DNA of 64,000 bases. It comes from Hymenobacter amundsenii (GTDB lineage Bacteria; Bacteroidota; Bacteroidia; Cytophagales; Hymenobacteraceae). The notes beneath the pieces were generated by a model, which had not been told where the DNA came from, did not search any database, and was given only the letters and a program-made list of their open reading frames with translations. This document shows positions 2,613 to 60,459 of the stretch, piece by piece. Each line of letters begins with the position of its first letter. Position 1 is the stretch's first letter. The DNA lies in contig NZ_NIRR01000018.1 of assembly GCF_002204745.1 (NCBI RefSeq), positions 1 through 64,000 of the forward strand, read 5' to 3'. Position numbers and translations under genes: made by a program.

Positions 2613-3944
2613 ATGGGCTTAAAAATATTACTGACTATTCTGCTGGTAGCCGCCAACGGATTTTTTGTGGCCGCCGAATTCGCGTTCGTCAAGGTTCGTC
2701 TCTCTCAAATCGAGCTGAAAGCCCAAAGCGGTAACCGCCTGGCGCAGCTGTTGCAGTCGATGCTGCACGAAATGAACTACTACCTCTCGGCCACCCAGCT
2801 CGGCATTACGCTGGCTTCGCTGGCGTTGGGTTGGATTGGCGAAAGCGTAGTAGCCGAGGTAATTCTAGCCATCATTGCCCAGTTCGATCTGGTGGTGTCG
2901 CCCACCTCGGTTCACCAGATTGCCATCGTTACGTCGTTTTCGCTCATCACCGTGATGCACATCGTGCTTGGCGAGCAGGCGCCGAAGGTGCTGGCCATCC
3001 AGAAGCCCGAGGCCACCAGCATGGCAATTGCCATCCCACTGCGGGCCTTCGCGTTCCTTACCTTCCCCCTTATTTGGCTGCTCGACAAGCTTTCGAACTT
3101 GGTGCTGCGCGTTTTTGGGGTGGTTTCGGCCCATGGAGCCGAGGTGCACACGAGTGAAGAACTGCGGATGCTGCTCGACCAAAGCAAGCAGAGCGGGGAA
3201 ATTCAGGAGTCGGAGCACGAGATGCTGGAGAACGTGTTCGAGTTCAACGACCGGATGGTGAAGCAGATTATGGTGCCACGCACCAAAATCGTGGCTTTCG
3301 ACGTGAATACACCCGAAGACACGGTGCTGGAAATGGTGCATAACGAGGGCTACTCGCGCATTCCGGTGTACGAAAGCAACGTCGACAACATTGTGGGTGT
3401 GCTCTACGTGAAAGATTTGCTCCAGCTCATCCGGCGGCAGGAAGTGCTGGATCTGGCCAAAATTATGCGGCCGGCCTATTTCGTGCCCGAAACCAAGAAG
3501 ATTAACCGCCTGCTGCGCCAGTTTCAGCGCAAGCACATGCACATGGCCATCGTGAGCGACGAGTTCGGTGGTGTGTCGGGCATCGTTACCATCGAAGACA
3601 TCATGGAGGAGCTCGTGGGCGAAATCCAGGATGAGTATGACAACGAGGTGCCGGTAGTGGAAAAGGTATCGGAATCGGAATACCGCGTGAACACCGCCAC
3701 GCCCATCCCCGATGCCAACGAACACCTACCCTACCCCCTGCCCGAGGGCGACGACTACGAAACCGTGGGCGGCTTGCTCAACATGCTTTACGGCAATATT
3801 CCCGAAGTCGGCGACGTAGCCACGCTCGACAACTACGAATTCCGGGTGCTCAAACGCTCCCGCCGCTCCGTCGAACTGGTGCAGTTGCGGGTTACCAACG
3901 GCCAGGAAAGCGAAATGGAAGTGGGCGAGATGCTGGACTTGTAG
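2613..3944 (+). CDS. CNNM/CBS-domain transmembrane protein (HlyC/CorC family)
   Basis: A 443-aa protein of the UPF0053 family, linked in the literature to magnesium/cobalt efflux and often annotated hemolysin. It has an N-terminal CNNM (DUF21) membrane domain (about residues 1-190, several hydrophobic segments, beginning MGLKILLTILLVAANGFF), a pair of CBS domains (about 205-330; MVPRTKIVAFD and the SRIPVYE motif are visible) and a C-terminal CorC/HlyC domain (about 345-425). The start at 2613 is chosen because the first membrane segment begins there; 16 in-frame residues upstream are not hydrophobic. It converges on the carbonic-anhydrase gene across a very strong hairpin. Confidence 0.9.
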   Translation: MGLKILLTILLVAANGFFVAAEFAFVKVRLSQIELKAQSGNRLAQLLQSMLHEMNYYLSATQLGITLASLALGWIGESVVAEVILAIIAQFDLVVSPTSVHQIAIVTSFSLITVMHIVLGEQAPKVLAIQKPEATSMAIAIPLRAFAFLTFPLIWLLDKLSNLVLRVFGVVSAHGAEVHTSEELRMLLDQSKQSGEIQESEHEMLENVFEFNDRMVKQIMVPRTKIVAFDVNTPEDTVLEMVHNEGYSRIPVYESNVDNIVGVLYVKDLLQLIRRQEVLDLAKIMRPAYFVPETKKINRLLRQFQRKHMHMAIVSDEFGGVSGIVTIEDIMEELVGEIQDEYDNEVPVVEKVSESEYRVNTATPIPDANEHLPYPLPEGDDYETVGGLLNMLYGNIPEVGDVATLDNYEFRVLKRSRRSVELVQLRVTNGQESEMEVGEMLDL

Positions 3945-5684: not shown

Positions 5685-6446
5685 TTAATGCGCCAGTTCG
5701 CCCCAGGCCAAGTCCCAGCGGGCGGGCGTGGCGGCCAGAGCTTCGGGGGTGGCGGGGCCGTAGTGTTCGAGGTAGTAATTGCAGAAGCCCTTTAGCGGGC
5801 AGCGGGCACAGTCAGGTTTGCTGTAAAAACACACCTTTTGGCCGTGCCAATAGTTGTGCTTGTGGAAGTTGAGCAGCACCAGCACATCGGCCGGTAGCTG
5901 AGCCAACAGCAGCTGGTGGGCCTTATCGGCCGACGCTTTGGGCGGAATCATCCCCACGCGCTGGGCAATGCGGTGCACGTGGGTATCAACGGGCAGCACA
6001 GGCTTATGAAAATTGAAGAGCAGCACCAGCGAGGCCGTCTTCAGGCCGATGCCGGGCATGTCGTGCAGCCACTGCATGGCCTTTTCGGTGGGCCACTCGG
6101 CCGGGAAATCCAGCGCAAATTCGCCCCGTTCGGCCTTTATACGGCGCAGAATTTCCTGGATGCGCGGAGCCTGGGTGTCGGGCCAGCGGGTGGTGCGGAT
6201 AGCGTGGGCCAGCTCTGCGGTCGGCGCGGCCTCTACCCCGGCCCAGTCGCCAAAAGCTTCCAGCATCCGGTCGTAAGCCAGCTCCTCATCGGCGTGGGTG
6301 GTGCGGTGCGAAAGCACCGTCGAAATCAGCTCCCGCATGGGTGAGCGGCGGGGCTTTTCGAGCGTCAGGGGTGGGTAGAACTCTTGCAGCTCCTCGTAGT
6401 TCTGGCGCGTCTTCTCGGCGGCCGAAGCGGTGTAAGTCGTGGGCAT
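5685..6446 (-). CDS. nth: Endonuclease III-type DNA glycosylase/AP lyase
   Basis: A 253-aa HhH-GPD superfamily enzyme of base-excision repair. The helix-hairpin-helix reads MPGIGLKTASLV, with the lysine expected of bifunctional glycosylase/lyases; the GPD-loop aspartate is in PVDTHVHRIAQRVG. The C-terminal 4Fe-4S motif C-x6-C-x2-C-x5-C is present (CFYSKPDCARCPLKGFC). The start MPTTYTAS at 6446 is chosen because the upstream in-frame extension is Pro/Gly-rich and overlaps a terminator. The N-terminus is slightly longer than in E. coli Nth. Confidence 0.9.
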   Translation of the reverse strand: MPTTYTASAAEKTRQNYEELQEFYPPLTLEKPRRSPMRELISTVLSHRTTHADEELAYDRMLEAFGDWAGVEAAPTAELAHAIRTTRWPDTQAPRIQEILRRIKAERGEFALDFPAEWPTEKAMQWLHDMPGIGLKTASLVLLFNFHKPVLPVDTHVHRIAQRVGMIPPKASADKAHQLLLAQLPADVLVLLNFHKHNYWHGQKVCFYSKPDCARCPLKGFCNYYLEHYGPATPEALAATPARWDLAWGELAH

Positions 6447-7787: not shown

Positions 7788-8531
7788 TTACAGCGTGCCG
7801 TTTTCAGCAGCCTTCTTCATTTTTTCGTTGGCGAAGATGGCAATTTCTACCCGGCGGTTGGCCTGCTTGCCGGCTTCGGTCGTGTTGTCGGCGATGGGCT
7901 GGGTCGAGCCGTAGCCCTGCGTTGTAACGCGGCTGGCATCTACACCCTGGCTAATCGTGTAATTAGCCACGGCCTGGGCACGACGCTGCGAGAGGGGGTT
8001 GTTGATGGCGTCGGAACCGCTGGCGTCCGTGTGGCCTTCCACCAAAATGTTGGTATCGGGGTACTTCTTCAGCGTTTCGGTCATCTTTTGAATTTCGGTC
8101 ATCGAAGCCTGACGCAGGTCGCTCTTGTTGGTGTCGAAGAGAATACCCGAGTCGAAGGTGATTTTGATGCCTTCACCCACGCGCTCTACTTTGGCGTTGG
8201 CCATATCACGCTGGAGTTCTTCGGCCTGCTTGTCCATTTTGCGACCAATCAGGGCACCACCCGTACCGCCTACGGCAGCTCCGATAATAGCACCGGCAGC
8301 CGTACCGCTTTTGCCACCGATTACGCGGCCCAGCACACCACCTACAATGGCGCCACCACCGGCGCCAAGCAAGCCACCCTTAGCTGTTTTGCTCATGCCG
8401 GTTTTGCGCGGACCCGTGCCATTGGTATCAGCTTCCGGGATGTTAGGGTTACGGGGCTGGGAAGTGGCGCAGGAGCTCATGAAGAGCACAAAGGCCATCA
8501 GGAGGGTGAAAAGAGAATTGCGAGAGGTCAT
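7788..8531 (-). CDS. Glycine-zipper/OmpA-family lipoprotein
   Basis: A 247-aa paralogue of the protein at 6556-7260, sharing the glycine zipper (SKTAKGGLLGAGGG..., about 45-95) and the OmpA domain (VEGHTDASGSDA, NPLSQRRAQAVANY). It differs in its N-terminus: a lipobox-like LFMSSC near residue 21 suggests lipidation instead of simple signal-peptide cleavage. The start MTSRNSLF at 8531 is preferred to the ATG three codons upstream. It has its own terminator, so the two paralogues are separately transcribed. Confidence 0.9.
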   Translation of the reverse strand: MTSRNSLFTLLMAFVLFMSSCATSQPRNPNIPEADTNGTGPRKTGMSKTAKGGLLGAGGGAIVGGVLGRVIGGKSGTAAGAIIGAAVGGTGGALIGRKMDKQAEELQRDMANAKVERVGEGIKITFDSGILFDTNKSDLRQASMTEIQKMTETLKKYPDTNILVEGHTDASGSDAINNPLSQRRAQAVANYTISQGVDASRVTTQGYGSTQPIADNTTEAGKQANRRVEIAIFANEKMKKAAENGTL

Positions 8532-17774: not shown

Positions 17775-17848
17775 GGTTGTGTAGCTCAACTGGATAGAGC
17801 ATCTGACTACGAATCAGAAGGTTTAAGGTTCGACTCCTTACACGACCA
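17775..17848 (+). tRNA. tRNA-Arg (anticodon ACG)
   Basis: A 74-base cloverleaf: acceptor GGTTGTG/CACGACC, D stem GCTC/GAGC, anticodon stem TCTGA/TCAGA around loop CTACGAA (anticodon ACG), T stem TAAGG/CCTTA around TTCGACT, discriminator A at 17848. The 3' CCA is not encoded. Its 3' end is the integration site of the prophage, and the gene stays intact at the left junction. Confidence 0.95.
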
Positions 17849-17850
17849 CA
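17835..17850. other. Left attachment site core (attL)
   Basis: TCCTTACACGACCACA, the last 14 bases of tRNA-Arg plus two, repeated exactly at 60444-60459. Confidence 0.85.
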
Positions 17851-17855
17851 AGAAA

Positions 17856-17890
17856 GACCCTCAGCACATAGCTGAGGGTCTTTTTCTTTT
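17856..17890 (+). terminator. Terminator downstream of tRNA-Arg
   Basis: A perfect 10-bp stem GACCCTCAGC/GCTGAGGGTC with a 5-base loop and a T-rich tail. Its sequence is related to the hairpins at 20131-20153 and 60463-60495. Confidence 0.85.
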
Positions 17891-17893
17891 ACC

Positions 17894-17916
17894 AGTGGCA
17901 GTTTCAGTGGCAGTTC
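17894..17916. repeat. Left integrase arm-type repeats
   Basis: Two tandem copies of AGTGGCAGTT(T)C at 17894-17905 and 17906-17916. The same word occurs twice near the right end (60310-60334), which suggests arm-type binding sites of the integrase. Confidence 0.55.
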
Positions 17917-17919
17917 GGG

Positions 17920-18099
17920 CTAAAATAGCCGGCGCCGGAACAGATACCAGTGGCCGTGCACCTTCCGCCAGTAGTTATAGTAGAAGTGCCGCTTTGGCCG
18001 GGGTTCCACGACGTGTCGGGCCGGGGGCAATGAGACGGTCGTGCCGGGAGTAGCAGACTCCAGCACAGTGCTTAGCAGTAGGGCAGGTATGAAGTTCAT
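17920..18099 (-). CDS. 59-aa phage protein, left-end copy A
   Basis: A small protein of unknown function with a hydrophobic N-terminus (MNFIPALLLSTVLES) and an aromatic, basic C-terminus (RPKRHFYYNYWRKVHGHWYL). A near-identical paralogue lies at 20193-20372. An in-frame ATG five codons upstream overlaps the -7 box of the phage promoter at 18103-18137, so the start at 18099 is preferred and the mRNA is expected to be leaderless. The hydrophobic N-terminus could be a signal or anchor. The transcript would read towards the tRNA, against the tRNA terminator. Confidence 0.6.
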   Translation of the reverse strand: MNFIPALLLSTVLESATPGTTVSLPPARHVVEPRPKRHFYYNYWRKVHGHWYLFRRRLF

Positions 18100-18102
18100 A
18101 CC

Positions 18103-18137
18103 CAAAACTGCCACGGTCTAGCACGGCCTGAAAGGAC
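18103..18137 (-). promoter_or_regulatory. Phage late-type promoter motif, copy 1
   Basis: GTCCTTT, exactly 20 bases ending in GG, then CAGTTTTG on the minus strand, ending 3 bases before the ATG of the 59-aa gene. Confidence 0.7.
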
Positions 18138-18174
18138 AAGGATTGTTCCTTACCTTGGAGCCTACACTATTTAT

Positions 18175-18270
18175 AGCGGTTTCGCGAACAGTGCACCTGT
18201 TTAATCCTTGTAAGTTCCTATAAGAAAGTTTATTACAATAATAAAAGTGTGCACTAGCTGCGAAACCGCT
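18175..18270. mobile_element. 96-bp MITE-like palindromic element
   Basis: Terminal inverted repeats of 22 bases (AGCGGTTTCGC plus a diverged GTGCAC-ending half) at 18175-18196 and 18249-18270 around an AT-rich centre. No transposase and no clear target duplication. A related single end lies at 19703-19724, past the acyltransferase gene. The 318-base gap 18100-18418 holds only this element and two promoters. Confidence 0.55.
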
Positions 18271-18390
18271 GTACATCATAATGAAACAAGTAGACATTTT
18301 ATCCTACGTGCTGTACTTGGCAGGTGCTCTTATCACAAAATAATACAAGTGTTTCACCAAAAAAATATAACCAAATAATGAAATACCCAA

Positions 18391-18398
18391 TATCTTTG
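18391..18398 (+). promoter_or_regulatory. Promoter -7 box of the acyltransferase gene
   Basis: TATCTTTG, an exact host-type -7 box 20 bases upstream of the ATG at 18419, so this gene can be expressed in the lysogen independently of the late phage promoters. Confidence 0.6.
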
Positions 18399-18418
18399 TA
18401 GGACATAAATCGCAAATC

Positions 18419-19696
18419 ATGGATCAAAATCTTGCTTTATTATATCAACCGGGCTCTTTACAAACTACCAAGCCTAAGTTCAACAGCAATCTTGAAGCAT
18501 TACGTGCAATAGCCGCTTTAGTAGTGGTGTGGCATCACACTATTGTTCACCCTTTTCAACTTGATCCAAATTTCGCTCCTACTGGTACCGCAAATTTTAA
18601 TCCCCCTGGGCATTTTGCGGTATTAATATTTTTTATTCTATCTGGTTACGTAATTGGTTTAGCACATCATAAACCATTAACAACTTGGTCATCCGTTAAA
18701 ATCTATGTACGTAAGAGGTTTACTCGTATTTACCCCATTTATGCAGTAAGCCTTATATTTGCTGTTGTTGTTTCAGGATTTAAATATTCAATCATTACTA
18801 CTTTAGGACACTTAATATTTTGTCAGATTATATGGGTGCCACTTATTTTTGAGAACAATCCTCTCTGGAGCTTACAATATGAGATGTTATTCTACCTTCT
18901 CTTTATTCCCTTATCTTCATTGAGAATTTCCCCAATATTGGTTACGATAGTTTCCATATTTCTTTCCTTCATAACTGCCTACTTAGCTAATCGGGGTATT
19001 GGGGGAACTAGCTATTCATACTTCGTTGGCTTCTCCTTCTGGGCATTGGGCTGGGCTCTGGGAACCGTCCCTACATCCCCCTCAATAAATTACAGAAAGT
19101 TAATAAGCGCGTTACTGCTGCTACTAGCAATAGGGTATTTCAATGTACTACAATCAGCATACACAAAAATGGCAACTATTATTATGCCAATGATAGTGAA
19201 ACCGACAGTTTCTTCAGAGTGGCCTGAATCCTTTATAAGTCCGATTGATTTTGCAGCATTGCCATTCGCATTGCTTATTATTTTGCAATTCATCAACTAT
19301 GAAAATAAATATTTTCGATGGACAGCCATTATCTTATATATATTGCCTGCGTATACTCTTATATACATAGCTCGTAATTTTCCAAAAGAAAATACATCCA
19401 CTGCTTTACTACCTATCCTATTTTATATAATTAGTGTATTTATATTTTTTTATAAATCCGAAATTTTAGAAAGATGTAGTAAATACATAATTTCAAAGAT
19501 AGGTTTAATAGGCAGTATTTCATATGGATTATATGTTATTCACTTTCCTATCATCTCAATTTTTCATCGCATCACTATATTTAGTGGAAGCATTAAAACA
19601 TTTAGCATTCGCTTTGTTATTTATGCGATATTAAGTATAGCTACCGCTTACTGGTTGGAAAAGAAATTTCAACCGTTTATAAAAAAAATATTGTAA
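18419..19696 (+). CDS. Acyltransferase 3 family protein (OafA/YrhL-like)
   Basis: A 425-aa integral membrane O-acyltransferase with about ten hydrophobic segments. The N-terminus carries the family signature: LEALRAIAALVVVWHHTIVHP with the conserved R and the H of the WHH motif. Relatives acetylate O-antigen, exopolysaccharide or peptidoglycan. Base use is strikingly AT-rich against the GC-rich surroundings, with runs of A/T codons, so it was acquired recently from a low-GC donor. It has its own host-type promoter. In a prophage such a gene usually alters the surface receptor and excludes other phages; that role is inferred. Confidence 0.9.
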   Translation: MDQNLALLYQPGSLQTTKPKFNSNLEALRAIAALVVVWHHTIVHPFQLDPNFAPTGTANFNPPGHFAVLIFFILSGYVIGLAHHKPLTTWSSVKIYVRKRFTRIYPIYAVSLIFAVVVSGFKYSIITTLGHLIFCQIIWVPLIFENNPLWSLQYEMLFYLLFIPLSSLRISPILVTIVSIFLSFITAYLANRGIGGTSYSYFVGFSFWALGWALGTVPTSPSINYRKLISALLLLLAIGYFNVLQSAYTKMATIIMPMIVKPTVSSEWPESFISPIDFAALPFALLIILQFINYENKYFRWTAIILYILPAYTLIYIARNFPKENTSTALLPILFYIISVFIFFYKSEILERCSKYIISKIGLIGSISYGLYVIHFPIISIFHRITIFSGSIKTFSIRFVIYAILSIATAYWLEKKFQPFIKKIL

Positions 19697-19702
19697 AAAT
19701 AT

Positions 19703-19759
19703 AGCAGTTTCGTCAACAGTGAACCTGTCGTACCGTAGAGACGCAGCATTTTGCGTTTC
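19703..19759. repeat. Single MITE-type end plus GAGACGCA palindrome
   Basis: AGCAGTTTCGTCAACAGTGAAC at 19703-19724 is a diverged copy of the terminal repeat of the 96-bp element at 18175. It is followed by an 8-bp hairpin at 19738-19759 (GAGACGCA/TGCGTTTC) like short dispersed repeats of Bacteroidota. Together with 18175 it flanks the acyltransferase gene. Confidence 0.4.
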
Positions 19760-19778
19760 ATCGTTGGAAAGAAAAATA

Positions 19779-19940
19779 ATGAAATATAGCGGGATCAACT
19801 ATATGCTGGAATTATTGGAGAATAAAATGGTGGATGAGATTCAGCGGTTTATATCTAATGATGATTTTGTAAATGACAGCGCTGAGCAATTCAAGAAGAT
19901 AACTCGACTCATGGGTCACCGGCCAAAATTCAATTCTTAG
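19779..19940 (+). CDS. Small AT-rich ORF, unknown
   Basis: 53 residues (MKYSGINYMLELLENKM..., Glu/Asp/Phe-rich, no recognised motif), AT-rich like the acyltransferase gene beside it. Its last 11 bases overlap the antisense resolvase remnant. It may be a fragment that came with the cargo segment. Confidence 0.3.
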   Translation: MKYSGINYMLELLENKMVDEIQRFISNDDFVNDSAEQFKKITRLMGHRPKFNS

Positions 19941-20120
19941 CAACCATATATTTATGCACAGTCCCCACCGGCACGTTTATGGCTGCACTGATCTTACGGA
20001 CACTCAGCCCATCAGACTGCAACTGGCGGATTTCATTAACTAGCTCTGGAGCCAGTGCCCGGCGGCCGTGCATGTACACCTCGCCCTTCTCCTCAGCCTT
20101 TTGCTTTTTCCTAGCGCGAC
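19930..20120 (-). pseudogene. Serine-recombinase C-terminal fragment
   Basis: Encodes a basic stretch (GRARKKQKAEEKGEV) and a resolvase-type helix-turn-helix (LVNEIRQLQSDGLSVRKISA, then VGTVHKYMV) that align in pattern with the end of the full resolvase at 20418-20999. The catalytic domain is missing, and the fragment stops exactly at the internal att-like sequence at 20110. From its internal ATG at 20073 a 47-aa peptide could still be made. Confidence 0.65.
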
Positions 20121-20160
20121 CACTCAAAAAGCCCTCAGCAACTTGCTGAGGGCTTTTTTC
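20110..20160. other. Internal att-like sequence with terminator hairpin
   Basis: 51 bases that align without gaps to the left junction (tRNA 3' end plus terminator, 17836-17886) and less fully to the right junction. They keep CGACCAC and a CCCTCAGC/GCTGAGGG hairpin with T-run. It looks like the diverged end of an earlier related integrated element. Confidence 0.55.
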
Positions 20161-20166
20161 TTTATA

Positions 20167-20190
20167 GGGTGTCAGTTTGGGTGTCAGTTC
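20167..20190. repeat. Internal arm-type tandem repeat
   Basis: Two tandem 12-mers GGGTGTCAGTT(T/C) at 20167-20178 and 20179-20190, in the same position relative to the hairpin and 59-aa gene as the AGTGGCAG repeats at the left end. Confidence 0.5.
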
Positions 20191-20192
20191 AG

Positions 20193-20372
20193 CTAGAATA
20201 ACCGCCCCCGAAAGCGGTACCATTGGCCGTGTACCTTACGCCAGTAGGTGTAGTAGAAGTGCCGCTTTGGCTTCGGCACGACGACATGCCGGGCTGGGGG
20301 TAATAATACAGCTGTGCCGGGGGTGGTAGTCTCCAGTACAGTATTTAGCAGAAGGGCGGGTATGAAGTTCAT
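20193..20372 (-). CDS. 59-aa phage protein, copy B
   Basis: Paralogue of the protein at 17920-18099, with most residues identical (MNFIPALLLNTVLETTTPG; RPKRHFYY versus KPKRHFYY). The start at 20372 is 3 bases below the promoter's CAGTTTTG. It lies just past the resolvase gene. Conservation of frame and promoter between the two copies argues that the peptide is real. Function unknown. Confidence 0.6.
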   Translation of the reverse strand: MNFIPALLLNTVLETTTPGTAVLLPPARHVVVPKPKRHFYYTYWRKVHGQWYRFRGRLF

Positions 20373-20375
20373 ACC

Positions 20376-20410
20376 CAAAACTGCCACCCCCTGCCTCGGC
20401 CCGAAAGGAC
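20376..20410 (-). promoter_or_regulatory. Phage late-type promoter motif, copy 2
   Basis: GTCCTTT, 20 bases ending in GG, then CAGTTTTG, directly before the 59-aa gene copy B and 7 bases past the end of the resolvase gene. Confidence 0.7.
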
Positions 20411-20417
20411 AGGAAAG

Positions 20418-20999
20418 CTACTCGACCAGGTACTTAGCCACCGTGCTGGGCGAAAGCTCCAGCGCCGTGGCAATGGCCCGATTGGAGCTACCGGCAGCCT
20501 TCAGCCGCTTCACGTGGGCCACCACGCCGGCGTCGACGCCCGGCCGGCCCAACACCTTGCCCTTCGCCACGGCCTTGGCCAGGCCGGCCTTCGTGCGCTC
20601 CCCCAGCCGCACTCGCTCCTGCTTGGCAATGGTGGCTAGGATGCCGATTATGGCGTCTCGGAACAGCCCAGTGCTGTCCAGATACTGCTCTGTAAATGAC
20701 TTGAACTGTACTCCAGCGCTGGAAAGTCGCTGCAGATAGGTGAGAGTTTCCATGACTCCCTCTCGGCTGAATCGGTCGAGGGCCCAAAAAAGGACGACGT
20801 CGAAGCGGCGCTGGTGGGCATCCTGGAATAGTCGCAGGAACTGCGGACGATCTGCGCGTGCGCCGCTTTCGCTATCGACATAATCTCCAACCACCGTATA
20901 ACCGCTTCGAGCCGCGAAGGCCCGTAATTCTCTGAGTTGGTTTTCATTGTCCTGTCCTTTATCGCGGGTGCTCACGCGGGCATAGATGGCAGCTCTCAT
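20418..20999 (-). CDS. Serine recombinase (resolvase/invertase family)
   Basis: A 193-aa small serine recombinase. The catalytic serine is in AAIYARVSTRDKGQD (near residue 10); DRPQFLRLF and FWALDRFSREG carry the conserved arginines; a helical arm (about 100-135) leads to a C-terminal helix-turn-helix (SSNRAIATALELSPSTVAKY). The ATG at 20999 overlaps the stop of the upstream gene by four bases (ATGA), which fixes the start and implies coupled translation. Length fits Tn3/Gin-type enzymes. Targets may be DNA inversion or resolution sites; none was identified. Confidence 0.88.
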   Translation of the reverse strand: MRAAIYARVSTRDKGQDNENQLRELRAFAARSGYTVVGDYVDSESGARADRPQFLRLFQDAHQRRFDVVLFWALDRFSREGVMETLTYLQRLSSAGVQFKSFTEQYLDSTGLFRDAIIGILATIAKQERVRLGERTKAGLAKAVAKGKVLGRPGVDAGVVAHVKRLKAAGSSNRAIATALELSPSTVAKYLVE

Positions 21000-21715
21000 G
21001 GACGTACCCAACGCTCTGAAAAGTCCCCCAGGATGCGCGATTGACGTTCCATCTTGGGGTACAGAGGGTTATTCAATTTATTAGGAGCAGCTATTTCTGG
21101 CTCTTCCCATTTAAGAATTCGCTCGAAGTACATCCCATCACGTCGGGCCACTGGCTTTTCTCTTAACTGAATGTTTTCCGCTCTGAGTGGCAACTTATGC
21201 TCTACACGCAGGAATTCACCTACTTGATCTTCATCAATGGCACGGTAAAACTCATCGAAGAAGATATCGTCAGGAAGATGAACAGAGTCATCAATATTAA
21301 ATGACTGATCCGCTTGGCGGTTTAGTCTGGGATTATAAGCCCGCATTCTAACCGATTTGGGGAAGTGGTCGTTCTCGACCCACAAAAACCAGCCTCTTGC
21401 TTCGAAGCGCAGGTATTGCTCCTTATATGCTTCGAAGATGAAATACGGAGACAAGTTGACGAGTACCACCGCGTCAGCTATGCTATGATCCACCGGAACT
21501 CTATGCTCTGGGTGGTTGAGTGCTGCTAACTCCAGAACCCTCGTGTTGGGAGAGGCTTCTACCACTTTCCAGATTTGGCCTGCCCGCAGCAGAGGATGGT
21601 AGTTTTCATTCTCACCACCTCGTCGCATGAAATATTCACCGGGGTGCAGGCGGCTGCCATCGGCGGCCAGGAACTTAGGGTAATCGTAGGTCGGGGGAAA
21701 GTTGGAAGTAGCCAT
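20996..21715 (-). CDS. Hypothetical phage protein (tail operon)
   Basis: 239 aa, no family recognised. Mixed alpha/beta composition, many aromatic and charged residues (GEYFMRRGGENENYHP, ENDHFPKSVRMRAYNPRLNR), no signal peptide or membrane segment. The start MATSNFPPTYDYP at 21715 is preferred; 40 in-frame residues upstream are basic and unlike it. It lies between the tape-measure gene and the resolvase, coupled to the latter by an ATGA overlap, so it belongs to the tail operon by context. Confidence 0.6.
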   Translation of the reverse strand: MATSNFPPTYDYPKFLAADGSRLHPGEYFMRRGGENENYHPLLRAGQIWKVVEASPNTRVLELAALNHPEHRVPVDHSIADAVVLVNLSPYFIFEAYKEQYLRFEARGWFLWVENDHFPKSVRMRAYNPRLNRQADQSFNIDDSVHLPDDIFFDEFYRAIDEDQVGEFLRVEHKLPLRAENIQLREKPVARRDGMYFERILKWEEPEIAAPNKLNNPLYPKMERQSRILGDFSERWVRP

Positions 21716-27561: not shown

Positions 27562-29519
27562 AAGCGGCCGGATTCAGGGCCCACGGCGGCCGGGGTGGTG
27601 CCAGCGGGCGTGGGGGGCAGGTAGGGCGTGAACTGCTGCTCGATGGGCAGCACGAACTCCACTTCCAGCGTGGGCACGGTTTTGCCGTCGTCGAGCAGAT
27701 TCACGGTTTTGGTTTTCAAGTAGCCAGCCAGCCACCGGCCGCTATTGAGCAGCAGCACCCGACGGCTGAGCAGCAGCTCCTGCAGGGCCAGCATGGCCGC
27801 CGAACCCAGGGCCACGCCGCTGGCCAGCTTGAGCACTGGCTTGAGCTCCCGCTCCAGCACGGCCGTGTCGCCCACCAGCGGGTCGTAGGCGAGCGAGCGG
27901 GTGAGTTCCACCTGCTCGCCGCTCAACTCGGCATCGTGCTGGGCTTCGCCGGTGGCCACAAACGTATTCATGCCACCGAGGCTATTGGCGTAGAGCAGGT
28001 AGCGCCGAAACGGCTTCACCCGGCGGTCGAGCACGTAGCGGCGGGTCTCGCTGAGGCCGTTGCCCTCACCGTCGACGATGTCCACTTGCCAGTCGACCAG
28101 CAAGCGGCTGCTGGCGGGCGTGAGCTGGGCCGCCACGAGTTGCGCGTACCCCACGCCAAAGCAGAATACCTCGAACCGGGCCACGTCCAGCACACGGTGC
28201 ATGGTGCCGACCTGGCTGCTGCCATCAGTGAAATTGAGGCGAAACCGACAGCTGATCTGCGCGGTGGCAGCCAGGCTCTGGAAATACAGAAACTCGGGCT
28301 GGTCGGCAAATACCGCCTTGTCGTTGGCATCCCACGTCAGAAATGGAAAGCGGCCAGGCTGGTAGGAGTTGAACCAGGTGCGAGCCGCCGCTTCGGCGCT
28401 GCTCAGCCCGCCGAGCAGGGCGTAATGCTGCACCAGGTCGGTGGCGACGCTGCGAACCGGCGGCTCGCCCGAGAGCTGTGCATGGCGCAGGTAAAAGCGC
28501 CGAAATAGCGCCGTGGCCCGCTCCCCTACCGGCCCGGTGGCGGGCGGCACGTGGTAGGCCAACTCGGGGGCCAGCAGCTCCTGCACCTGAAACGTGGTGC
28601 GGCCGGCGCGGTCGGCCGGCTGCTCCAGCTCGGTACCCACCGGCTCAAACACCCCGCTTAAATAGTCGCGCTCCACCAGCACCTGGCACGCGAACGTGAG
28701 GCCGGGCAAGGTACTGGGGTCGGCACGGTAGTCATCGCCGGCATCGAGGGGCAGAGCGATGGGGTTGCGTACGAAGTAGTAGCGAAACTCGCTCGCCCCG
28801 ACGACTACCGTGGTCTGGCAGCCCAGCGAGTCGGTGATGGTGCACGCGTAGGTGCCGTCGGCCAGGTCGGAGCGAGTATTGGTCGTCTGGGCCGGGTCAT
28901 CGTCCCAGGCATAGGTGTAGGGAGCCGTGCCGCCCGACACGCGCAGCGTCACGAGCTGATCGGTTTTGTCAATCACGACCTCGATGCGCGTGTTCTGGCC
29001 CACCGTAACCGGCAGCAGCAGCTGGGCCCCGCTTTCGTGGCGGATCGTAACGGTGTAGTTGCCGGCCACCAGCTGGTCGCGGTCGGCGGTGGTAGCTCCG
29101 TCGCTCCAGCTGTAGGTGTAAATGCCGGCGGGCGAGTCGGCGCTTAGCTCCAGCTCCACGATGCCGCCGGCCGCGCCGAAGCACTTGTTGTCGGTGACGG
29201 TGGCCGTGGCCACGATGGTGTGCGGGTCGGTGGTGAAGCCACCCACCCCATCGTGGAAGTAGCCAGTACGCGTGGGGCCCTGCACCGTGAAATGAAACTC
29301 GAAATCAGTGGCCAGCGACAGGTTTTCGGGCGGGGCCTCGCCGGTGCTGGTCTCCTGGGTGTAGGAGCCGCCGGCGGGGAAGGCCGTAAACACGACCTGC
29401 AGCGTGTCGGTATCGAAATCGTAGCGGTCGGCGCCGTAGTAGTTACCGAACGACTGGTCGTAATCCCGGTCGCCGAAGCTGCCGTTGGGCCGCCATTCCT
29501 GGAGAAGTGTAATCAGCAT
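27558..29519 (-). CDS. Phage tail protein with SprB-like repeats
   Basis: 653 aa. Residues about 105-255 hold two tandem repeats of the SprB type (GIYTYSWSDGATTADRDQL, then GGTAPYTYAWDDDPAQT with GTYACTITDSLGCQ), a beta module best known from Bacteroidota surface adhesins. The remaining 400 residues are beta-rich with no recognised family. It is probably a tail-tip component that contacts the host surface. It ends with a four-base overlap onto the 491-aa gene. Confidence 0.7.
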   Translation of the reverse strand: MLITLLQEWRPNGSFGDRDYDQSFGNYYGADRYDFDTDTLQVVFTAFPAGGSYTQETSTGEAPPENLSLATDFEFHFTVQGPTRTGYFHDGVGGFTTDPHTIVATATVTDNKCFGAAGGIVELELSADSPAGIYTYSWSDGATTADRDQLVAGNYTVTIRHESGAQLLLPVTVGQNTRIEVVIDKTDQLVTLRVSGGTAPYTYAWDDDPAQTTNTRSDLADGTYACTITDSLGCQTTVVVGASEFRYYFVRNPIALPLDAGDDYRADPSTLPGLTFACQVLVERDYLSGVFEPVGTELEQPADRAGRTTFQVQELLAPELAYHVPPATGPVGERATALFRRFYLRHAQLSGEPPVRSVATDLVQHYALLGGLSSAEAAARTWFNSYQPGRFPFLTWDANDKAVFADQPEFLYFQSLAATAQISCRFRLNFTDGSSQVGTMHRVLDVARFEVFCFGVGYAQLVAAQLTPASSRLLVDWQVDIVDGEGNGLSETRRYVLDRRVKPFRRYLLYANSLGGMNTFVATGEAQHDAELSGEQVELTRSLAYDPLVGDTAVLERELKPVLKLASGVALGSAAMLALQELLLSRRVLLLNSGRWLAGYLKTKTVNLLDDGKTVPTLEVEFVLPIEQQFTPYLPPTPAGTTPAAVGPESGRL

Positions 29520-57599: not shown

Positions 57600-58052
57600 A
57601 TGCCCCAAGAGACTGTAAGTCAAAGGATTAAAATTCTCATAAAAGCACTAGGATTGAATCCAAAGAGCTTTAGTGAGAAGTACGGAGTCAATGAAGGGAC
57701 TACGCGTGGCTACACTACACGCGGTTCTGTTCCAAATGCTGAATACATCGGCACGCTCCTAAGAGCAATTGAAAATTTAAATGCGCAATGGCTCTTACTA
57801 GGAGAAGGTTCGATGTTCACTGGCGCTGCTGAACAGGCCTCCACCTACCAAAAAAATTCCGGGGGCAACAATATCGGCCAGAACACCGGCACCGGTAGCG
57901 TGACCCAGACGCACACCGAGGCTACCTCCAGTGAGCTTCAGCAGCACTTGGAGGCAGCCCGGCGTGAAAACGAACTTCTCAAAAACCAGCTCCGCGATAA
58001 GGAGCGCATCATCCAACTGCTCGAACGCCACTCCCCCATGCCCCCCACCTAA
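57600..58052 (+). CDS. Phage repressor-like HTH protein, copy 1
   Basis: 150 aa. An N-terminal Cro/CI-type helix-turn-helix (SQRIKILIKALGLNPKSFSE; NAEYIGTLLRAIENLNAQWL; LLGEGSMF) and a C-terminal tail: a Gly/Asn-rich turn (NIGQNTGTGSVTQTH) and a coiled coil ending in LRDKERIIQLLERH. The coiled coil probably dimerises the protein. It is the likely lysogeny repressor acting at the CAATTG sites; no LexA-type protease domain is present, so induction would need another signal. Confidence 0.75.
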   Translation: MPQETVSQRIKILIKALGLNPKSFSEKYGVNEGTTRGYTTRGSVPNAEYIGTLLRAIENLNAQWLLLGEGSMFTGAAEQASTYQKNSGGNNIGQNTGTGSVTQTHTEATSSELQQHLEAARRENELLKNQLRDKERIIQLLERHSPMPPT

Positions 58053-58061
58053 CCCCACTCA

Positions 58062-58520
58062 ATGCCGTGTCGCCCAGCAGAACGCATGGGCCACTTGCGG
58101 ACAGTATTGCAACTCAACACCAGTGAATTCGCGCTGCTGCTGGATCTGCCCCGAAAACGGATGAAACGCATCCTGCGGAGCACGGCCAAGCCCAGCGTAT
58201 CGCTTCTGGCCCGCGTCAGGCGGGCACTGCCCTACATTAATCCCGATTGGCTCCTCACCGGCGAGGGGCCGGTGCTTTACACACCTGCTACCGCCCCCGC
58301 CGACCCGCTCTATTTGCCCCTGCCAAGCACACCTATCGCTCTATCCCCCGGCAACGCCATCCACACCAATCATGGCACCGCCAACCAAACGCTCAACATC
58401 CTGCATTGCCAGCAAAGCCTGAATGTCTGCCGCCAACACATGGCCATGCTCCAGCAGCAGCTGCGGGATAAGGAGCGCATCATTCAATTACTTGAACTGC
58501 AGCTTAATTCCGCTCACTAA
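58062..58520 (+). CDS. Phage repressor-like protein, copy 2 (paralogue)
   Basis: 152 aa, nine bases after copy 1. Its layout repeats it: a degenerate N-terminal HTH (NTSEFALLLDLPRKRMKRIL; PYINPDWLLTGEGPVLY), a Pro-rich linker, a Gly/Asn turn (GNAIHTNHGTANQTLN) and the same coiled-coil end (LRDKERIIQLLELQ). The shared end suggests the two can form heterodimers. Start could be 58062 or 58086. Confidence 0.65.
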   Translation: MPCRPAERMGHLRTVLQLNTSEFALLLDLPRKRMKRILRSTAKPSVSLLARVRRALPYINPDWLLTGEGPVLYTPATAPADPLYLPLPSTPIALSPGNAIHTNHGTANQTLNILHCQQSLNVCRQHMAMLQQQLRDKERIIQLLELQLNSAH

Positions 58521-58897
58521 TGTCCAAGAAAACGATTCTTATCATCAGCTTTTTTGCCTTGCTTATTTACGGCGCGGTAACATCAAAATCTTCGCCGCCT
58601 GAGAAAGATTATGTTGACATACACCCTGGAATCAAAGCTATTACGGCGGGGCTGGTAGTAAGCAACACGGACACCTTCTCCTACTACCGCCCAGAAATCA
58701 CCATCAACAAAGACTACAAGTATATTGCCCCAAGCGTCGGTAAAAACGGAAACATAGTAGTGCGCTGGGACGATTTTGTTGACAGCGACGGCAAACGGTT
58801 TTCCGCTGTTAGCTCCAAAGTGGCCCATCTTAAAATCGTCACGGCCGCCCCTAACAAGAAGCTGGGTATATTCATTACTCAGGAAGTAGGCCGGTGA
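58520..58897 (+). CDS. Small exported protein of the lysogeny operon
   Basis: 125 aa, unknown. An N-terminal signal or anchor (KKTILIISFFALLIYGAVTS) and a beta-rich exported domain (KYIAPSVGKNGNIVVRWDDF). Its ATG shares a base with the repressor stop (TAATG), so it is expressed in the lysogen. This is the usual place for superinfection-exclusion or phage-defence genes; the function is not known. Confidence 0.6.
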   Translation: MSKKTILIISFFALLIYGAVTSKSSPPEKDYVDIHPGIKAITAGLVVSNTDTFSYYRPEITINKDYKYIAPSVGKNGNIVVRWDDFVDSDGKRFSAVSSKVAHLKIVTAAPNKKLGIFITQEVGR

Positions 58898-60297
58898 AAA
58901 TCACTCGGCAGCTGCGCGAAGACTTGCTCAACCAAAACGGCTACGCGCCCATCCAGGTCACCATCTGCTGGCAGGGCCACCGCAAGCGCGTGAGCAGCGG
59001 CGAGGTGTGCCGGCCGGCGCACTGGAACCCCGAGTCCAGGGAAGTCAACTTCGTGCGCGGCAACTTCTCGGCCGACATCAACAAGCGCCTGGCCGATATC
59101 AACTACGCGGCCGTGTCGGCACTGAACCTGGCCAGTACTGAGCGGCGCCTGTTGCCGGCCGAGGAGCTGCTGGCCGCCGTCAACGGCATCGTGCGGCCGG
59201 CTGCGGCCGTGGCGGCCCCGGTGGCGGAGCAGCCGGCAGCCGCTGGCACGCCCACCCGCATGATCGGTACGCCCGAGGCCCGGGGCTGGTACGACGAGTG
59301 GGTGGAGGAGCAGGCCGCCAAGATGTCGAAGAAAACCAAGCGGCTCACCTCCAAGAACACCATCCGCGCCTACCGCTCCACCCAGCACCGCCTGCAGGCC
59401 TACGAAGAGTACCGCCAGGCCCCGCTGCAGTTCGCTGACATGACGCTTACCAGCTTCTACCAGCCATTTTGCGCTTACGTGCTCGACCACCTGGGCAAGG
59501 AACTCAACACGTTCGGCAAGTACATGTCGCACCTAAACACGTTCCTGCGCTGGTGCGACATCGAGCAGGATCTGCCGGTGCACCGCCACTACCGCAAGTT
59601 CACCGCCCCCGAGGAGTACATCGGCGTCGACGCGCTCAGCGACGCCGAGCTGCTGGCCATCGCCGCCCTGCGCTTCCGCGACCCGGAACTGCAGCCGCTG
59701 CTGCTCGAGGGCTACGCGGCCCAGTGCCAGGCCCAGGCCGACTTCTTCCGCAAACGAGGCAAGCAGCAGTACACTACGTCGAGCCCCAGCGTCGAGAGCC
59801 CCGGCTTCGCCTTGTTCGTGCAGCGCATCGAGCTGGCCCGCGACAAGTTCCTGCAGTGCTGTTACCTGGGCGTGAGCATTTCCGATGCCGACACCATGCC
59901 CCGCACCACGGCCCGCAACCAGGTCATCGAGTGGCGCCGCGGTAAAAGCGGCAACGCCTGTTACATCCCCTACTTCGACGACGACATCTTCAAGCCGGTG
60001 GCCCTGGCGGCCAAATACGCGGGCCAGACGCCCCTGTTCGTACCGTGCTGCTACGACGTCAACGAAATGCTCAAGGTGATAGCCCGGCTCATCGACCTGA
60101 CCCGGCTGAACCTGAGCACCAAAATTGGCCGGAAAACTTTTGTTACTATTAAGCTCTTCCAGGGCGTGCCGCAGCGCATGGTGATGATGGCCACCGGCCA
60201 CTCCACCGAGGCATCGTTCAACCGCTACGTGGGTGTGGATCTGCTCAAGCTGCTGGAGCAGTTCAAGCGCCACTCGCCCGCCCAGAAGGCCGCCTGA
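58894..60297 (+). CDS. int: Tyrosine integrase, phage type
   Basis: 467 aa; GTG start at 58894 overlaps the upstream gene by four bases. An N-terminal arm-binding region (residues 1-65), an Ala/Pro-rich linker (near 110), a SAM-like core-binding domain (about 130-230) and the C-terminal catalytic domain with GRKTFVTIKLFQG (R-K in place of the usual R-H), MATGHSTEASFNRYV (the GH and the Tyr nucleophile). The first catalytic Arg box reads GVSISD instead of the usual GLRxSD. A long insert lies before it. Right end of the prophage, 147 bases from attR. Confidence 0.85.
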   Translation: MKITRQLREDLLNQNGYAPIQVTICWQGHRKRVSSGEVCRPAHWNPESREVNFVRGNFSADINKRLADINYAAVSALNLASTERRLLPAEELLAAVNGIVRPAAAVAAPVAEQPAAAGTPTRMIGTPEARGWYDEWVEEQAAKMSKKTKRLTSKNTIRAYRSTQHRLQAYEEYRQAPLQFADMTLTSFYQPFCAYVLDHLGKELNTFGKYMSHLNTFLRWCDIEQDLPVHRHYRKFTAPEEYIGVDALSDAELLAIAALRFRDPELQPLLLEGYAAQCQAQADFFRKRGKQQYTTSSPSVESPGFALFVQRIELARDKFLQCCYLGVSISDADTMPRTTARNQVIEWRRGKSGNACYIPYFDDDIFKPVALAAKYAGQTPLFVPCCYDVNEMLKVIARLIDLTRLNLSTKIGRKTFVTIKLFQGVPQRMVMMATGHSTEASFNRYVGVDLLKLLEQFKRHSPAQKAA

Positions 60298-60309
60298 GCG
60301 CATTAATTC

Positions 60310-60334
60310 AGTGGCAGATTGGAGTGGCAGTTTC
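60310..60334. repeat. Right integrase arm-type repeats
   Basis: AGTGGCAGATTGG at 60310-60322 and AGTGGCAGTTTC at 60323-60334, the same word and same spacing (12-13 bases) as at 17894-17916. Confidence 0.55.
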
Positions 60335-60443: not shown

Positions 60444-60459
60444 TCCTTACACGACCACA
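60444..60459. other. Right attachment site core (attR)
   Basis: TCCTTACACGACCACA, the copy of the tRNA-Arg 3' end left at the right junction. The 400-base stretch 60298-60698 holds only the arm repeats, this site, a terminator and the next promoter. Confidence 0.85.

Follow-up and report, generated by a model that had tools for sequence, protein, structure and literature searches.

In the accretion-mobilisation model, cis-mobilisable elements (CIMEs) carry cargo bounded by attachment (att) sites. PMC10111431 describes a tandem pair of phage-inducible chromosomal islands (PICIs) with outer att sites in tRNA-Ile2 and an unrelated internal fis attP, and its authors suggest that a circular element entered by homologous recombination in a shared segment. 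PMC8978831 defines tandem accretion, discusses insertion at secondary sites, names CIME302 and describes a composite genomic island, CGI48, with GI21. Here we analyse a 64,000-nucleotide stretch of Hymenobacter amundsenii (contig NZ_NIRR01000018.1, positions 1 to 64,000, hereafter the window), which holds a prophage whose left end is present in two diverged copies, the second buried inside the element. We consider it moderately probable that this prophage arose by recombination between two related temperate phages and that the buried left end is a fossil of the second; the two left ends, the position of their junction, the outer ends and the empty site are read directly from the DNA.

As in the PICI tandem, the outer att sites belong to one target and the internal one to another; there, the two satellites are described as forming a tandem whose duplicated region is long, whereas in the present prophage the inner phage can be recognised by its left end only, and the junction falls within a truncated resolvase. 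CGI48/GI21 is likewise a composite mobile element, but GI21 is an intact nested island that excises, and nothing comparable is intact here. The kind of event is thus already known, and the present case adds one more example, in which the joint is well resolved. A limited literature search found, among the papers listed, no publication describing these Hymenobacter prophages.

Two left ends within one prophage

The prophage is one insert of ~42.6 kb (17835-60459), with attL in a tRNA-Arg(ACG) gene and attR shortly after a tyrosine integrase. The 3′ end of the host tRNA gene (17775-17849, + strand, ARAGORN) is the attachment site, the attL core TCCTTACACGACCACA (17835-17850, +) recurs as the identical 16 nt at attR (60444-60459, +), and the integrase (58894-60297, +; Pfam domains Arm-DNA-bind_5 and SAM_5), besides which no tyrosine integrase was found in the prophage, is followed by right-end arm-type repeats (CAGTGGCAG / GAGTGGCAG, 60309-60333, +). 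The empty site was sought in 29 loci of relatives that carry the right-hand flanking gene, with 1.5 kb upstream covered. A tRNA-Arg(ACG) lies upstream of this gene in 10 of them, nine of which also have the left-hand flanking gene, and it stands uninterrupted between both flanking genes in 9/29 loci; the other 19 have no tRNA-Arg(ACG) inside the 1.5 kb examined. In six loci the tRNA lies 248-297 bp from the right-hand gene, and the corresponding distance from the end of attR in the window is 240 bp. These relatives show that 17835 and 60459 bound one insert, and that the hairpin 3′ of attR (-24.3 kcal/mol) is the original chromosomal terminator. With its 16-nt attL and attR, tyrosine integrase, terminase (matched in 34 of 120 genus genomes) and an empty site in relatives, the element has the features of a temperate tailed-phage prophage, and present-day excision would proceed via 17835 and 60444 only. 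A public viral contig of the prophage (L010, IMGVR_UViG_2852063445_000001; 38,776 bases) begins at the start codon of an acyltransferase gene, so the true left end is missing from it.

As the original prediction had read it, the left-end order occurs twice: copy 1 (17835-18138) and copy 2 (20109-20411) have the same build of att core, hairpin, arm-type repeats and a 59/64-aa gene. Globally aligned, the copies are identical in 236 of 304 columns with a score of 166, where 200 mononucleotide shuffles reached at most -39, which sets aside the chance resemblance that had been named as the counter-case; in blastn searches of the genome against itself, copy matched copy at E 1.9e-63. A repeat search paired 17835-17916 with 20109-20190 (82 nt ungapped, 73%, spacing 2274) and 17919-18138 with 20192-20411 (220 nt, 80%, spacing 2273). 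The first pair bears out the gap-free alignment that had been claimed between the internal segment and the attL segment, including the retained CGACCAC, the core ending in both copies. Each copy has a terminator-like hairpin, recovered by repeat search and folding (17853-17883 and 20126-20158, both +; -25.1 and -24.1 kcal/mol), followed by a pair of arm-type direct repeats on the + strand: CAGTGGCAG twice in copy 1 (17893-17916), with similar pairs in relatives' left ends, and GGGTGTCAG twice in copy 2 (20167-20189). The arm block of an intact prophage left end at tRNA-Arg(CCG) in relative G036, GGGTGTCAGTTTGGGTGTCA, is identical to that of copy 2 over 20 nt.

The small open reading frames (ORFs) lie on the - strand at 17920-18114 and 20193-20387; the first has no Pfam match and encodes 64 aa counted from GTG, or 59 aa if translation starts at codon 6, an ATG. 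Codon comparison of the two gave 19 synonymous and 11 non-synonymous differences (dN 0.086, dS 0.839, the rates per non-synonymous and synonymous site), pointing to two lineages under protein selection and not to a recent duplication. The 64-aa protein found matches in 3/59 relatives' genomes, its own genome counted in, no match in the genome contig collection, and one match among viral contigs, which was the same genome. A AAAGGACA-like motif occupies the presumed promoter position in several relatives, as judged by eye only.

Collinear order and ungapped alignment are also what a local duplication of the left end within one phage, followed by divergence, would produce. With a small-gene dS near 0.84, different resolvases flanking the two copies and a junction inside a resolvase gene, such an origin is very improbable.

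A joint between a resolvase gene and an att core

The sequence immediately before copy 2 is the C-terminal fragment of a type-A small serine resolvase (19930-20115, -), cut inside the internal att core. Comparison with relatives gave 59-75% identity in ten loci (L035-L044) with full-length or near full-length genes, and the homology extends to window position 20115, inside the core, in agreement with the claim that a resolvase fragment ends at the internal site. The truncated resolvase is of a different type from the intact type-B small serine resolvase that follows copy 2 (20418-21011, -; PF00239, 1.5e-34). The N-terminal half of the type-A gene was not found elsewhere in the window, where the only matches were to the type-B resolvase, so sequence has been lost between the two left ends. 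Among named genomes, relatives of the resolvase are mostly Hymenobacter. A small serine resolvase of one of the two types stands at the left end of many related prophages, besides the tyrosine integrase.

Nucleotide homology to the left region of relative G094 (cargo C-terminus plus resolvase) runs over 19785-20115 (331 nt, 78%), and homology to the left-end blocks of other phages begins at 20108/20109. The A-type homology ending at 20115 overlaps the core in ~7 nt, TCCTAGC (20109-20115), which can be read both as resolvase gene and as att core and within which the junction lies; the resolvase codons Ala-Arg (GCT AGG) run in frame into the core. At the junction position, TTCCTAGC is present in 1/12 related resolvase genes.

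The internal core itself, TTCCTAGCGCGACCAC (20108-20123, +), with the ending GCGACCACT, is identical at 16/16 positions to the 3′ end of the genome's own tRNA-Arg(CCG) gene (C40:16656), at 13/16 to attR and at 12/16 to attL. The 16-mer occurs exactly in 45/120 genus genomes (reversed control 0) and lies at tRNA-Arg(CCG) in 29/30 loci among the matches listed (30 of 48). We also compared distinct tRNA-Arg copies (24 ACG, 36 CCG), some of whose loci had been fetched by similarity to the copy-2 block. None of the 24 ACG copies has the 16-mer; it is in 35/36 CCG copies, an inflated figure as most of those loci were fetched by that pattern. The outer att sites thus have one common target and the internal att matches another chromosomal target, with a left half that is compatible with the resolvase.

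These data bear on tandem accretion of two related elements at one tRNA followed by deletion, the explanation offered in the original prediction. Two related phages are upheld by the small-gene divergence (dS 0.84) and the differing resolvase types, and loss of sequence by the missing resolvase N-terminus; the placement at one tRNA is not supported as it was put, given the 16/16 identity to tRNA-Arg(CCG) and the want of any integrase or right-end module just before the internal core, where only the resolvase C-terminus was found, unlike in the apparent tandem of G094. If two related phages had accreted at tRNA-Arg(ACG), the body and integrase of the first element would have been lost in a deletion that spanned the DNA between its resolvase and the internal core. 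Such a history would suit the ACG-like hairpin stem of copy 2 and a pairing of copy-2 and right-end arms (L2/R) that resembles the ACG prophage G016; comparable arrangements are the left end and degenerate second core ~230 bp apart at one tRNA-Arg(ACG) in H. montanus (L235) and the apparent intact tandem in G094. Against it, the core has only 12-13/16 identity to ACG sites, a resolvase with TTCCTAGC would have to meet an ACG core ending in GCGACCAC (2/24 copies), and the lack of a right-end or integrase remnant is tolerable only with an added deletion. We regard this history as possible but unlikely.

A third explanation would treat 17835-20108 as a small CIME-like passenger element that the prophage integrase could move, since two att-like blocks bound this stretch and cargo lies inside it, as in CIMEs. 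Here, unlike in those elements, two kinds of site are present: 3-4/16 positions of the right-hand core are different, and resolvase coding sequence makes up the left half of that core. The small-gene search, which covered 59 relatives and two collections only, did not find the 2.3-kb unit by itself in any relative. We give this explanation hardly any credence.

Under the recombinant reading that we favour, phage A, of tRNA-Arg(ACG) type, would have contributed the outer core, the copy-1 hairpin, arm repeats and small gene, the cargo and the start of the type-A resolvase gene as read from its 3′ end. Phage B, likely of tRNA-Arg(CCG) type, would have contributed a complete left end that runs from its core through the copy-2 hairpin, arm repeats and small gene to the type-B resolvase. 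Circular or integrated B and prophage A would have exchanged DNA at two places, and two crossovers would suffice. The first would have joined A's resolvase gene to B's att core in the ~7 common nt (TCCTAGC), through B's integrase acting at a secondary site or through short-homology recombination, and the second may lie anywhere in the shared phage body. B might have inserted into A's resolvase, followed by collapse between the two bodies, or might have entered by homologous recombination, followed by deletion; both orders would give the same product. Buried in this way, the fossil core of B should not be used by the resident integrase. In favour of this reading count the identity of the internal core to tRNA-Arg(CCG), the left ends of like build at tRNA-Arg(CCG) in G069 and G036, the position of the junction, the single integrase at the right end, the single left end of G061a and the recurrence of fossil att blocks in G012 and G006.

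Several observations weigh against this reading. The hairpin stem CTCAGC of copy 2 occurs at 13/24 tRNA-Arg(ACG) copies and at 1/36 tRNA-Arg(CCG) copies, and all three CCG prophage left ends seen (G036, G069, G091) have CTCACG instead. If the left half of the core derives from the resolvase, a single base, G at 20116, distinguishes CCG from ACG, and the GCGACCAC ending is found in tRNA-Arg(ACG) copies too (the two of 24 noted above). Arm repeats are not diagnostic, as G016 at tRNA-Arg(ACG) combines left-hand GGGTG(G/T)CA with right-hand CAGTGGCA. The remnants in L235 at one tRNA-Arg(ACG) look accretion-like, and neither intact parent, A or B, was found among the relatives examined. With ~7 nt next to the discriminating positions possibly derived from the resolvase, the CCG assignment is likely without being proven; the stem, the one-base discrimination, the arms and L235 together hold the CCG origin at that level and the recombinant reading as a whole at moderately probable.

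Arm repeats had also been considered as proof of the integrase's own left end, as the copy-1 arms (L1, AGTGGCAG) first seemed paired with attR and the copy-2 arms (L2, GTGTCAG) did not. The argument fell on the mixed arms of G016 at ACG and on G069, which has AGTGGCAG arms at CCG. Scans of viral contigs returned nine stretches for the CCG core, eight of which were viewed by eye, none with the hairpin-arm build, and eight stretches for the GTGTCAG arm pair.

Left ends of related prophages

The simple form of the left end is seen in relative G061a, where tRNA-Arg(ACG) is followed by a single left end (hairpin and arms), then directly by a resolvase, with one attR after the integrase. Left ends of the same build stand at tRNA-Arg(CCG) in G069 and G036. 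Two further Hymenobacter prophages, G012 and G006, sit at tRNA-Met with a left-hand integrase, and behind this module a tRNA-Arg(ACG) core, hairpin and arms lie buried. G012 is bounded by tRNA-Met cores at 2749 and 50245, and G006, a remnant of ~10 kb, by such cores at 28863 and 39056. Both resemble the H. amundsenii prophage in having an older block behind a newer outer module, and both differ from it in the nature of this newer module, a left-end tRNA-Met integrase. They indicate that an old att block has been hidden behind a newer module more than once in this phage family.

The 50 left-end segments compared include at least four duplicates of the same locus (L217/G101, L220/G119, L224/G083 and L234/G061). 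Besides those of G012 and G006, the free-standing att blocks among them were one in L235, which is degenerate, and one at 6235 of G131, which is unclassified. In L235 (Hymenobacter montanus; reverse complement, 2682-3036), a tRNA-Arg(ACG) with a left end is followed ~230 bp on by arm-like repeats and the degenerate second core; judged from these features, it seems to be a prophage of which deletion has left just the two ends. G094 (L097-L099) holds apparent tandem prophages: an integrase immediately precedes the next prophage's terminator-like att, and positions 8102 and 53458 of the joined stretch carry the same att tail.

Cargo and neighbouring genes

The AT-rich cargo that had been predicted between the copies is borne out: 18170-19790 has 34.4% GC, compared with 60.8% for the window. 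In G094, a small gene is followed by a promoter region, a cargo gene and a type-A resolvase. The window keeps the start of a G094-like cargo gene (18278-18340, +, DNA alignment with the G094 left end) and its end (19785-19940, +, 78% aa identity to G094), and between these remnants lie the acyltransferase and ~30-nt repeats. This identifies the outer left region as belonging to a G094-like phage that later received an insertion. AT-rich cargo interrupting the older gene, the acyltransferase gene lies at 18419-19696 (+; Acyl_transf_3, PF01757). Its family is present in 81/120 genus genomes (E <= 0.001), the nearest other copy being 57% identical. By family only, the acyltransferase at the prophage edge is a candidate lysogenic-conversion gene that may act on surface polysaccharide.

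Ahead of the remnant cargo gene, repeat search and alignment place an inverted-repeat insertion with ~30-nt ends (18172-18276, no strand assigned), resembling a miniature inverted-repeat transposable element (MITE). A ~32-nt repeat flanks the acyltransferase on both sides (18172-18276 and 19700-19731; 25/32 identical), and 18242-18276 holds a third copy in inverted orientation. This motif was found only in the window and its own copies, at no other locus in the 2.65 Mb compared, and the repeats are like the ends of MITEs or insertion sequences (IS).

Next to the integrase, at the other end of the prophage, lie two adjoining, weakly related repressor-like ORFs (57600-58052 and 58062-58520). G094 also has two such ORFs, and several relatives apparently have one.

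Implications

Exchange of integration modules between phages is known and its joints are rarely visible; here a joint is resolved to ~7 nt, in an att core. The case also calls for caution, as the present ends of a prophage cannot be assumed from att-like repeats in its interior. Tentatively, and as an unlikely reading, we suggest that the left end is an exchange joint throughout this phage family, at which an integrase may link its att core with a short secondary site in the left region of a different phage, here 7 nt of a resolvase gene. Equally speculative is the extension that phages may gain new target tRNAs by adding a further outer end in front of the existing one, so that buried att blocks would record the order of past targets. 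The buried left end would be a recombination scar that shows how such phages change their insertion site and, if this is confirmed, the past integration targets of a phage lineage could be read from its fossil att blocks.

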